Virus record (IMG/VR): IMGVR_UViG_3300010392_000921
Span: 1-27,441 of that record
Reading direction: 5' to 3' (one strand)
Length of the DNA: 27,441 nucleotides
Source of the DNA: a virus
Positions 15,863 to 22,395 of this stretch are shown here, piece after piece; position 1 is the stretch's first letter, and the number at the start of each line of letters is the position of its first letter. Under the pieces are notes generated by a model that did not search any database, was not told the origin of the DNA, and worked only from the letters and a program-made list of their open reading frames with translations. The translations under genes were made by a program, and so were the position numbers.

Positions 15863-16416
15863 TGACAATACCTGCAGATGTCGCGAACAATCTAAATAAG
15901 CCGTTTGAATTATGCTATTTAATTAAAATAGAATTCAGCGGCTTAACGCTAGCTATAACTGATGCACCATTTGAAATAGATCACGATGGACTAACTTACA
16001 TACCAAGCGACCTACTTGTGTCTGTTGGCGATATTAAAAGCAGCTCAGAAACTAAGGTTAACACTACTAATTTAGCATTTAGCAGTGTCGATCAAACAAT
16101 TGTCGCGCTAATGCTTGCAAACAACCAGATCGGTAGAGATGTTTACATCTATCAAGTTTATTTTTATGAAGACAATTTGAGGCAATCTGGTACTTACGTA
16201 GAGGAAGTGTCAATAGGTGAGATTAGTGGATTTACAAATGCATCAGAAAGAGACTCAAGTTTGATTAGTTTAAGTATTTCAAGTTTGTATGCGGATTGGG
16301 AGCGCAAATCCGGGCGCGTAACAACAAATTCAAGTCAGCAGTTATATTACCCTAATGACTTAGGTATGGAGTGGGCAAACGCCGTTCAAAGTGATTTAAA
16401 ATGGGGTGCTAAATAA
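15862..16416 (+). CDS. Tail hub-associated protein, DUF2163/lambda L-like (184 aa)
   Basis: GTG start overlaps the upstream stop (TAGTG). Contains ELCYLIKIEFSGLTLAITDA then GLTYIPSDLLVSVGDIKSSS near the N-terminus. A C-terminal motif, DWERKSGRVTTNSSQQLYYP with NDLGMEWANAV after it, matches the 'R..GR.t..sq...yPgD.gfe.a' ending known from DUF2163 and lambda L-type tip proteins. In lambda, L binds an iron-sulfur cluster in the tail tip; I see no cysteine set here, so that feature is probably absent. It lies between the distal tail protein and the J-like gene, as expected. Confidence 0.72.
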   Translation: MTIPADVANNLNKPFELCYLIKIEFSGLTLAITDAPFEIDHDGLTYIPSDLLVSVGDIKSSSETKVNTTNLAFSSVDQTIVALMLANNQIGRDVYIYQVYFYEDNLRQSGTYVEEVSIGEISGFTNASERDSSLISLSISSLYADWERKSGRVTTNSSQQLYYPNDLGMEWANAVQSDLKWGAK

Positions 16417-18710
16417 TGTCTTTATTTAAGAAGTTAAGAAGATTAAGTAACAAGCTTGGCCTTGGTATACCAGATAAAATAGATGAGCTTTTCTCGCCAA
16501 AAATGCCAGCAAAAAAAGGGCTTAGAGTACAAAGACAGGGCTCTTCACTTCCTATACCTGTTGTTTATGGCACTCAATTTGTCGGCGGTATTGTTGTTCA
16601 TAAATACGTCACTGATGGATCAACAAAAAACAGGTTTTTAAATGTTATAGTAGTTTTTTGCGAAGGTGAAATTGACGCCTTTGAGGAAATATTTTTTGAT
16701 GGCGTTAGCTGGGAAGATGAGCGCTTTAAAGATAACAGAGACGGCACCAGATGGTTCATAGCATCTCTTCTTGAGGGCGCACCTTCTCAAATATCCACAC
16801 TACCCATTGATAACATTCCGAACTGGACAGATAAGCACAACCTTAACGGTTTAGCTTGGGGTTATTTTAGGTTTGAGCAAGATAAAGACCAAACAATATG
16901 GAGTGGTGAGCCAAAAATAACCGCCAGAGTTAGAGGTAAAAAGATATTTGACCCTAGAGCAAATACAACCGCTTATTCTGATAACCCAGCCCTATGCCTT
17001 CGTGATTATTTAACTAATCCGATTTATGGTAAAAATATACCAACAAGCAGAATTGATGATGCCGCATTTATTAATGCTGCAAATAACTGCGATCAAGTTA
17101 TAGACTCAGTGGAGCAAACTGTAACTCGCTCTTTTTACGATGAGGAAAGTGGTACTTATATAACATTACCATCTGAGACCACCTTTGTAGATATTACAAA
17201 GCATACTTGTAACTTAACCATCGATACAAGCAACAGTATTTTTGATAATGTAAAAATACTATTAAACACGTTCAGAGGTCTGCTTCCACCAAAATTTATT
17301 TTAAGCCCAATAATAGAAGAAGCTGGAAGCCCTTCGTTTACGTTTGATGATGACATAATTGAAAGTGACGTCATTATTAAATCACCTAATCTCAACCAGC
17401 GATATAATAGAGTTACGGTTAGGTTTCCAAATGAACTTTCACCCACATTTGATGATGACGAAGCATTCTGGCCTGCTACAGATTCAGCTATATACCAAAC
17501 TTTTTTAAGTGAAGATAACGGTAAGCTTTTAGAGAAAACGTTTGATTTTAACGGTATAAATAACATGGCTGAAGCTCAGCAGATGGCTGAGTTTTTATGC
17601 AAAAAATCAAGGTTTCAGTTATCCACAACAATCACAGCTAACCCAATATCGAACCAAGTTGAGGTTGGTGATATTGTCGGATTAACAAACCTTGACAACG
17701 GTTATACAAACAAGCCTTTCAGAGTTAAATCTAAAACACAACTGTCAGACAATTTATTTAGGTTTGAGCTTTTAGAGCATGAAAATAATATTTATCCGTG
17801 GGAGGATAAGGCCTACAACGAAATAGACGGGGGCACTTGGCTTGGTGACCCTGGCGATGTTGGTGTTGTTGAGGAGTTAACCTTTGTAAAAGATTTAAGT
17901 CTCTCATCGACAGGAACTTTAACTTGGAAAGCTGACAATGACTCTTTTATTGATGGTTACATTGTAGAGACTAGGCTGGTTTTAGATGAAAATGGAGATA
18001 AACCAACAAACGAAGCTGGTCAAGAGGTTGATTTTATAATCATAGAAAGAGTTGATACTGTTTCGGAAAGTTACACTATACCATTGCTGACAAAATCAAC
18101 GTATCAATTTTTTGTTTACATAAGGTCGACCGTTGGCAACACTGGTTTACCAAGCTCAATAGAAGTTTTAGTTGCTAACCCTCCAGAGCCAGACGGTATA
18201 ACATTTGAAGCAGATAACTTTGAAATTAGAGCTAGTGCTTTTTTTGATCCAGACCCAAACGTGGGTCAAGGGGATCAAGGTGTTGGGACAAGCTTTCAGT
18301 TCGCTATAAGTGACACCGCAAACCCTAGTGAGCCAACTGGATCAATTACATTTGTAAACCTCTCACCAGAAACCACCTATACTATTTTTGCGCGTTCAGT
18401 TAACGCTTACGGTGTTTCGCCTTGGATTAGTCAAGAGGTTCAGACTTTAAAAGATGGCTCAAGAATAGTTGAAGTTATCGGTGATGATATTTCAGATGTT
18501 ATTTTGCCTGATGTAATTGACGCGGTGCAAGATGATTTGCAGCAAATTGTAACTGACTCGCTTGTTGACTACCCGACTAAATTAGAGGTTACAGAAGAGA
18601 TAAATAATTCCATAGGGTTAATCAACAACGCCTTCAATGAGGACCCGAGATTAACTCCTATAGAGGTTATCAACAATATACTTGAAATTACGACACTGAA
18701 GGTAATGTAA
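16416..18710 (+). CDS. Tail tip (host specificity, J-like) protein, N-terminal part before frameshift (764 aa)
   Basis: Begins MSLFKKLRRLSNKLGLGIPD and contains GSSLPIPVVYGTQFVGGIVV (about residues 42-62). This is the 'r.gs..piPvvYG...vgG.iv' opening of lambda-J-like tip attachment proteins (phage-tail_3 family). The hub domain runs to about 485. Two fibronectin-III-like domains follow at about 487-593 and 594-680 (with LSPETTYTIFARSVNAYGVS). A helical region then leads into the frameshift. The frame ends at the TAA at 18708-18710, but the reading continues in the -1 frame without interruption to 20482, so this is the 5' part of a split gene. Expected intact size about 1355 aa. The J protein forms the tail tip and determines receptor binding. 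Confidence 0.85.
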   Translation: MSLFKKLRRLSNKLGLGIPDKIDELFSPKMPAKKGLRVQRQGSSLPIPVVYGTQFVGGIVVHKYVTDGSTKNRFLNVIVVFCEGEIDAFEEIFFDGVSWEDERFKDNRDGTRWFIASLLEGAPSQISTLPIDNIPNWTDKHNLNGLAWGYFRFEQDKDQTIWSGEPKITARVRGKKIFDPRANTTAYSDNPALCLRDYLTNPIYGKNIPTSRIDDAAFINAANNCDQVIDSVEQTVTRSFYDEESGTYITLPSETTFVDITKHTCNLTIDTSNSIFDNVKILLNTFRGLLPPKFILSPIIEEAGSPSFTFDDDIIESDVIIKSPNLNQRYNRVTVRFPNELSPTFDDDEAFWPATDSAIYQTFLSEDNGKLLEKTFDFNGINNMAEAQQMAEFLCKKSRFQLSTTITANPISNQVEVGDIVGLTNLDNGYTNKPFRVKSKTQLSDNLFRFELLEHENNIYPWEDKAYNEIDGGTWLGDPGDVGVVEELTFVKDLSLSSTGTLTWKADNDSFIDGYIVETRLVLDENGDKPTNEAGQEVDFIIIERVDTVSESYTIPLLTKSTYQFFVYIRSTVGNTGLPSSIEVLVANPPEPDGITFEADNFEIRASAFFDPDPNVGQGDQGVGTSFQFAISDTANPSEPTGSITFVNLSPETTYTIFARSVNAYGVSPWISQEVQTLKDGSRIVEVIGDDISDVILPDVIDAVQDDLQQIVTDSLVDYPTKLEVTEEINNSIGLINNAFNEDPRLTPIEVINNILEITTLKVM

Positions 18711-20482
18711 AAACCGAATCACTAGAAAGAAAGACGCAAGTAAACAGTCTGCAAACAGAAATAAACGGAAATACTGCAAGTATTGTTGAAATAAACACGG
18801 TTGTTTCTGATCTTGATAGCTCAACTGCTGCACAGTTTACAGCGCTTCAAACAAGAGTTGACGATAACGAGTCTAGTATAGTAGAGATAAATCTTTCTGT
18901 AAGCGATTTAGAGTCATCTGTTGCACAGCAATTTACACAAATACAAGCTTCAGTTGATGGTAACTCAGCAAGCATAACAAGCGTTTCAACTGCGCTTGCA
19001 ACAGAAACGACCACTAGGGCAACGCAAGTTTCACAACTGCAAGCAACTGATAACAACATAATTAGCCAAATAAATCAGGTTGAATCAGATGTAGAGGGGA
19101 ATTTTAGCTCTATAAGTGCGATTCAAGCGACAATAGATAATCCCGTTACAGGTCTAAGCGCCACGTATGGGTTAGCACAATCAGCAGAATCAAAAGCAGA
19201 TGGTAATACAACATCCATAACAGCGCTAACAAACAAGGTTGAAGACCCAGATAGCGGACTTTCAGCTACTTTTAGCCTTGCATCTCAAGCAAAAATAACG
19301 GCAGATGGTAACACTACATCCATAACAGCGCTAACAAACAAAGTTGACGACCCAGACAACGGACTTTCAGCTACTTTTAGCCTTGCATCTCAAGCAAAAA
19401 TAACGGCAGATGGTAACGCATCATCCATAGCGGGCCTTGACACTAGAGTAACAAGCGCTGAGGGAACAGCAAATGCGGCTTTAACTCTTTCATCGAGCAT
19501 TGACTCAAGCTTGAATGAATATAGAGCAAGCGCACAAATAAAAGTAGATGCTCAGGGTAACGCTGGTTTTATACAGCTTGACGCAACTCCATCAGTTACG
19601 CAAATAAGATTTGAGAGCGACCAGTTTATATTGCAGCAAAACGGAGTTCCGAAGGTTTTCTTTGATAACACAGAAAGCCAATACAAGTTTATAGGGATAG
19701 GGGACTTTACGGTTGTTGATTCACCCATAATTGACTCTCAAGATATTACCGCGACAAACGCAATATTAACTAAAAATATATCTGTTAGTGGTAGATGTAT
19801 CACTGATTTTATTGTTGACGCCGGAAAGCAGATAACAGCGCAAAAAATAGAATGCACAGAGACTGATAGCACTAGATTTGTTGGTAGAGATTTAAACTTA
19901 TCAGGAACAACAACAAACGCCAGAGCTTTAATTGTCAATACGGGTGCTGGTGATGGTGTTGACGCTGCATCAACTGGTGGTGGTTTTGCTTTTTACGCCT
20001 CGCAAGGTGGTTACGGCCCGTTTACAGGCTCTCACGAAGGGTTAGTTAAAAAGGGGTTTAAAGCTGAGGTTGGTGATTTAATTTGTGACGGTGATTTAAT
20101 TCACATTGCCGATGTAAGCAACGCGATACTTGAATCAAAATTGTCAACAGAGAAAAATGACCCTTCAATATCTGGCGCTTTTGTATCATTGAGGCCAGTA
20201 AATAATAGTAAACTTCCTGCAGGACTTAGGGGGTTTAGCGGTGACTTATCTAATTATGATATAATTACATTTAATTCAATTGGCGAAGGTGTAATTAATG
20301 TCTGCGGTCAAAATGGAGACATAAAAGCCGGTGATTATATATGCTCTAGCTCATTACCGGGTAAGGGTATGAAGCAAGATGAAAATACAATGAAAAATTA
20401 CACAATAGCAAAAGCTAGACACTCAGTATCTTTTAAAGGTAATGAAACAAAACAGTTAGCTGTAAAATATTTAGGTGGTTAA
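18686..20482 (+). pseudogene. J-like tail tip protein, C-terminal part displaced by a frameshift (-1 frame relative to 16416)
   Basis: This frame opens at 18686, after a TGA at 18683-18685, and runs without a stop to 20482. It lacks any ATG, GTG or TTG until 19511, so it cannot be a separate gene; it continues the J-like gene. It reads NYDTEGNVKTESLERKTQVN and then coiled-coil repeats like DUF1983 regions of J proteins. A beta-rich tip (NAGFIQLDATPSVTQIRFES) and a GDYICSSSLPGKGMKQDE box near the end follow, as in C-terminal phage fibre chaperone/peptidase-like domains. Adding one A to the AAA run at 18685-18687 would fuse the two parts. No classical slippery heptamer is present in the overlap, so a real mutation or an assembly/sequencing error is more likely than programmed frameshifting. 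Confidence 0.8.
19091..19450 (+). repeat. 105-bp (35-aa) tandem repeats inside the J-like coding region
   Basis: Three units at 19091-19195, 19196-19300 and 19301-19405 plus a partial fourth to about 19450. Units 2 and 3 are nearly identical in DNA (the ADGNTTSITALTNKV part and GLSATFSLASQAKIT); unit 1 is diverged in the same period. They encode a coiled-coil shaft, so copy number would set fibre length; near-identity suggests recent duplication or homogenisation. Confidence 0.9.
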
Positions 20483-21477: not shown

Positions 21478-21675
21478 ATGATTGAAAAAAAAGAAATACC
21501 TTACGAGTTTTTAGTGAGAATTAATGATGGCGAAATATCTGGAGCGCATGTAAGAAGACTTGAAGTTGTTAAGGATTCTGAAACCGGTGAAGTTTACAGT
21601 GCAAAAGAGCTGCCAGCAGAAGCTATAAATTTAACACAAGAAGAGTTAAACATGATTAAATCGAGGTTAGTATGA
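21478..21675 (+). CDS. Small unknown protein after the tail fibre gene (65 aa)
   Basis: I use the ATG at 21478, three bases after the fibre stop; longer versions beginning at 21439 run back into the fibre gene. The product, MIEKKEIPYEFLVRINDGEI onward, is acidic. It has GAHVRRLEVVKDSETGEVYS in the middle and a helix EAINLTQEELNMIKSRLV at the end. Its size and place suit a tail fibre assembly/chaperone-type helper, but no family is recognised. The stop overlaps the ATG of the lipoprotein gene at 21672. Confidence 0.68.
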   Translation: MIEKKEIPYEFLVRINDGEISGAHVRRLEVVKDSETGEVYSAKELPAEAINLTQEELNMIKSRLV

Positions 21676-21977
21676 GAATTTTAGTTTTGTTTTTTGTGGT
21701 GTTACTAGCTGGTTGTTAGTCAATGGGCGTAACAGAATACGAGCTTGAGCCAATTGTAAAATCAGATGGATCCGTTGTTTGTTGTAAGGCTACAGTTTAC
21801 AACTCCAAAGATTACGATCAGCTTAAATTTAAATTCAAGGTTGATAAAGATGGAAATATTGAAGCTGTACTTGATGAAAAAGGTGTAAATTCTAGCGACC
21901 CCGCATCTATTGGCGCTGAGAATAACGGGAAAATGCTTGATGCTATTAACAAGTTGATACCTTTAACTGGTGGCTAA
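21672..21977 (+). pseudogene. Lipoprotein with in-frame amber codon directly after the lipobox (101 codons)
   Basis: ATG at 21672 opens MRILVLFFVVLLAGC, a textbook lipoprotein signal peptide with the lipobox L-A-G-C, overlapping the preceding gene. The next codon (21717-21719) is TAG, then SMGVTEYELEPIVKSDGS and so on to 21977 in the same frame. Replacing TAG by CAG would give LLAGCQSMG, the usual start of a mature lipoprotein, so a C-to-T nonsense change, suppression/readthrough, or a base-call error is likely. The ATG at 21723 could restart translation but would yield a cytoplasmic protein of 84 aa. The mature part is charged, with a VVCCKATVYNSKDYDQLKFK core; function unknown, candidate outer-membrane exclusion or lysis accessory protein. 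Confidence 0.8.
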
Positions 21978-21978
21978 C

Positions 21979-22395
21979 ATGTTTTACTCTAAAAGGCATG
22001 ACCAGCAATTCAGAGTGATTAACGTAAAAACTCAATCTGTTTTTAATTTTGTTGAAAAGATAAAAGCTACTGACGGTAAGGTATTGGGTTACGTAGTTAA
22101 GGAAAATCTAGCTTACTGGTCTGAACGTTACAAAAAATGGGTGACAATTAAAGCCGGTGATAAGTCTGACGGAGCAACAAAGGCACCAGATATTAATAGC
22201 TGGTGCTGGCTAATTCATGATGACCTGTGTAACTTTGGCGTTTTTGAGGATGGTACTAAATGCAACAACTGGCAAGCTTCTATGATACTTAGTGACATTC
22301 TTTCTACTGAAGGTCGATGGTTTAGATCTAAAACATGGCTTATGGCAACTTGGATTTTCGGCGGCGGAAAAGCTAGGGAGAATGGTATGTTTTAG
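21979..22395 (+). CDS. DUF1353-like phage protein (138 aa)
   Basis: I use the ATG at 21979, one base after the preceding stop; a GTG at 21970 is possible. Contains KWVTIKAGDKSDGATKAPDI then WCWLIHDDLCNFGVFEDG, the 'G..tDGaS.P......iHD.ly' signature of DUF1353, a family common near phage lysis genes and of unknown biochemical role. The C-terminal part (SDILSTEGRWFRSKTWLMAT) is hydrophobic and helical. It is the last gene of the tail block; the hairpin at 22390-22413 overlaps its stop codon. Confidence 0.75.
   Translation: MFYSKRHDQQFRVINVKTQSVFNFVEKIKATDGKVLGYVVKENLAYWSERYKKWVTIKAGDKSDGATKAPDINSWCWLIHDDLCNFGVFEDGTKCNNWQASMILSDILSTEGRWFRSKTWLMATWIFGGGKARENGMF

Follow-up and report, generated by a model that had tools for sequence, protein, structure and literature searches.

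Llp of phage T5 is among the closest described systems to the locus considered here. Its gene lies adjacent to and downstream of pb5, and Llp binds FhuA from the periplasm and blocks adsorption (PMC9586334); the position of the lipoprotein gene described here may be likened to that of the llp gene. The gene sits after tail-tip and tail-fibre genes, as cor does in phage N15. In the window (the whole stretch of viral DNA that was analysed, 27,441 bases), this gene is interrupted by an in-frame TAG directly after the codon for the lipobox cysteine.

The interrupted gene and its surroundings

A search of viral contigs with the 84-aa part of the protein as query recovered four relatives, in contigs G001 to G004, and a profile search of viral contigs returned the same four. 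The features of the locus that matter for the argument are as follows.

16416 to 20482, plus strand: gene for tail-tip protein J; the window lacks one base near 18685, which shifts the frame, and G001 (1355 aa) and G003 have the gene intact
21478 to 21675, plus strand: small ORF upstream of the lipoprotein gene; its TGA and the lipoprotein ATG share bases (ATGA), and it is conserved in G003 (83%)
21672 to 21977, plus strand: lipoprotein gene split by a TAG, in which 21672-21716 encode the signal peptide and lipobox, 21720-21974 encode the body and 21975-21977 is the TAA; a continuous ORF in loci L001, L002, L003 and L004
21717 to 21719, plus strand: in-frame TAG; TCG (Ser) in G001, a single C-to-A difference at 21718
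21723 to 21977, plus strand: 84-aa ORF from an internal ATG, which is without a Shine-Dalgarno sequence; all four relatives have this Met
21979 to 22395, plus strand: downstream conserved ORF, 79% identical in G003; its family matches are all below the cut-off

From the ATG at 21672, 15 codons specify a signal (MRILVLFFVVLLAGC in the window) that ends in LLAGC, and the TAG stands immediately 3' of the TGT codon of the lipobox cysteine. The same frame is open beyond it, from TCA-ATG at 21720-21725 to the TAA, so that the TAG and the in-frame 84-aa ORF lie where the initial annotation had placed them. We consider the start at 21672 credible, given that a GAGG (21663-21666) lies 5 nt 5' of the ATG and that this ATG overlaps the stop codon of the upstream ORF. 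The lipoprotein ORF runs without interruption through the lipobox cysteine in all four relatives and is broken in the window record only. Since signal and 84-aa body form one continuous ORF in each of the related contigs, their joined reading is not due to chance, and the earlier view that a single lipoprotein gene has been cut by a TAG is borne out.

TAG otherwise serves as an ordinary stop in this window. It ends the genes at 1848, 8138 and 15862, as had been noted before, and, in all, 11 of the 40 tabulated ORFs. Genome-wide recoding of TAG, which the initial annotation had also discounted, is rejected given the many genes that stop at this codon.

The site in related contigs

In G001 (IMG/VR 3300010430_000105; 45,207 bases), the lipoprotein gene differs from that of the window by one base, with TGT-TCG-TCA (C-S-S) in place of TGT-TAG-TCA, that is, C rather than A at 21718. 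The lipoproteins of G002, G003 and G004 are more distant (64-83% protein identity). G004, at 64%, has the same TGT-TCG codons as G001, and G002 and G003 read C-V-N at the site of the lipobox cysteine. A lipobox of the form [LVI]-[ASTVI]-[GAS]-C is present throughout, as LLAGC in the window and G001, LLTGC in G002 and G003 and IVAGC in G004. None of the four relatives has TAG at this codon, which is TCG or another sense codon. The initial annotation had proposed an ancestral CAG (C-Q-S) altered at 21717 and a search of homologues for CAG or TAG. Neither codon occurs at the site in the four relatives, and the altered base is 21718. A scan of viral contigs in which A or C was allowed at the site returned only the C form, in G001, although such a scan may pass over the record of the window itself.

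The lipoprotein is kept under strong purifying selection, with a dN/dS of about 0.05 between L001 and L003 (dN 0.12, dS 2.3, with dS near saturation) and of 0.02 between L002 and L003 (dN 0.008, dS 0.42). Between the window and G003, the 84-aa part is 90% identical and so better conserved than any other tabulated protein (24-83%). No relatives of the lipoprotein were found among phage records (tblastn) or among genome contigs.

These comparisons bear on two ways, both raised in the initial annotation, in which the TAG could be of use to the phage. Under programmed or suppressor-dependent readthrough of the amber codon, translation would mainly give a separate 15-aa peptide, and a little lipoprotein would be made. 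The frame is indeed open before and after the TAG, as readthrough would need, but the codon is found in none of the relatives, and many genes of the window end at a TAG in the ordinary way. No tRNA gene, and so no suppressor tRNA, was found in either the window or the 45,207-base G001 record, and the RNA fold 3' of the TAG is unremarkable, being only slightly better than those of shuffled sequences (z -1.37). Literature searches for readthrough of amber codons in lipoproteins of phages, and for errors in contigs, returned nothing relevant. We regard readthrough as very improbable.

Restart at the ATG at 21723, giving a cytoplasmic form with a function of its own, fares no better. This ATG lies three bases past the TAG and its Met is invariant in all of the relatives, which would suit a start codon, but no Shine-Dalgarno sequence precedes it. 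In all four relatives the same Met is internal to the intact lipoprotein, and its conservation thus does not require that translation start there. Such a restart is likewise highly improbable.

Differences from a near-identical record

G001 aligns over all 27,441 bases of the window with only four differences (99.985% identity). The two records represent the same phage, sharing gene order and the lipoprotein except at the TAG codon; in contrast to the window, G001 has the Ser codon TCG at that place and an intact J gene. The differences are these.

7433: AAG/AAA, synonymous
Near 18685: one T fewer in the window than in G001, with a frameshift in J
21718: A in the window, C in G001; TAG versus TCG, nonsense
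26195: TAC (Tyr) in the window, AAC (Asn) in G001, in the portal protein

At residue 96 of the portal protein, where the window has Tyr and G001 has Asn, the G003 alignment is gapped and does not tell which record is right.

The J gene was assigned from matches to PHROG 31 and related families. In the window its frame stops at 18710 and then resumes to 20482, while J is a single 1355-aa ORF in G001 and is continuous in G003 too. J is the central tail fibre and presumably essential. G001 gave no integrase match, which offers no indication of a decayed prophage, although the record may be incomplete. The J region of the window also contains, at 19196-19429, a tandem copy of about 105 bases (93% identical) with repeated SITALTNKV..GLSATFSLASQAK units.

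Conserved genes, one of them presumably essential, are thus broken by two of the four differences, a pattern to be expected of uncorrected errors or of a defective copy and not of a regulated amber codon. The one-base deletion in J indicates that the contig as written is not a fully functional genome. We therefore favour, with a probability of roughly 0.75, the reading that the TAG arose as a base-call or assembly error in the contig or, failing that, belongs to a rare non-functional copy. This judgement is drawn from sequence comparison. Nonsense changes make up 4.6% of random coding substitutions, and the probability of at least one among three substitutions is 0.13, so an error needs no special explanation. 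A nonsense change is unremarkable for an error and unexpected for variation that has been filtered by selection, and we infer that the difference at 21718 is probably an error rather than true variation. Against the error reading, real mutations could account for differences between contigs from separate samples, and the comparison is with a single near-identical record.

Under the favoured reading, the intact gene encodes a small phage lipoprotein of an ordinary kind, about 101 residues long, with a signal that has the lipobox LLAGC, Cys15 as the predicted site of the lipid, then S-S-M-G and about 84 residues of conserved body. In the window, one base of the Ser16 codon differs, C to A, which gives the TAG. 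The TAG is a real letter of the record and most likely not a biological feature. The frameshift in J calls for the same caution.

The initial annotation had put a nonsense change first among its explanations. That order was right. The second gene-breaking difference, in J, which could not be seen from the window by itself, points to an error or a defective copy. The alternative is a true null allele, a nonsense change that segregates in the phage population in a lipoprotein gene which the phage can do without. In general, phages can complete a single infection cycle without accessory lipoproteins such as those for superinfection exclusion, and apart from a few differences the contig nearly matches G001; both points are compatible with a null allele. 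A viable phage, however, should not carry the J frameshift that is found in the same contig. The strong purifying selection on the lipoprotein gene, and the occurrence of the TAG in no other record in the viral contig searches, also speak against a null allele, which we consider unlikely, though a serious candidate. If the TAG is real, it would represent a loss-of-function allele of an accessory lipoprotein and be of modest interest. Finally, the TAG could be both real and fixed in the strain, with amber suppression by the host providing lipoprotein in suppressor hosts only. The J frameshift would then have to stem from a separate error, and we give this reading almost no credence.

From the perspective of genome interpretation, the case for an error or a non-functional copy carries a caution: a striking stop codon in one virus contig should first be compared with near-identical records.

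The intact lipoprotein and known phage lipoproteins

The intact protein may be lipidated and located in the outer membrane, as suggested by the Ser at +2 and the lack of an Asp there. No supported family match for the lipoprotein was found in Pfam, PHROGs or NCBIfam, and a sequence search against the PDB gave no match. The AlphaFold model made from four sequences (pLDDT 53, pTM 0.31) is too poor to use.

Our leading guess is that the protein is a superinfection-exclusion or lysis lipoprotein. Among phage families of known function, the best match is to the Cor superinfection exclusion family (PHROG 1119), and it is weak (best E 0.0018). We built a Cor profile from six aligned Cor proteins and compared profiles over the full length and over the mature parts. 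The match consists of 15 residues of signal and lipobox, and the mature parts give no alignment (hhalign probability 0.3%). An identity with Cor is thus not supported, as the signal peptide and lipobox match and the mature parts do not.

In G004, the lipoprotein gene follows an M15 endolysin gene and stands just before the terminase genes, a place that would equally suit a lysis lipoprotein. Directly 5' of it, and 3' of the endolysin gene (L004, 3498-3936), are genes for a 50-aa peptide and for a coiled-coil protein with a single apparent membrane segment. These are possible lysis genes, and neither has a supported family match. No such coiled-coil or membrane-segment neighbour of the lipoprotein was identified in the window.

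Outer-membrane spanins of the Rz1 type are small lipoproteins too, and the G004 gene lies 3' of the coiled-coil ORF just described; the comparison with Rz1-type spanins gave no supported match, the best being to an Rz-like family (E 0.051). Like Cor and Llp of phages N15, phi80, HK022, T1 and T5, the protein described here is a small phage lipoprotein encoded 3' of tail-tip genes, and it differs from them in its length and cysteine pattern.
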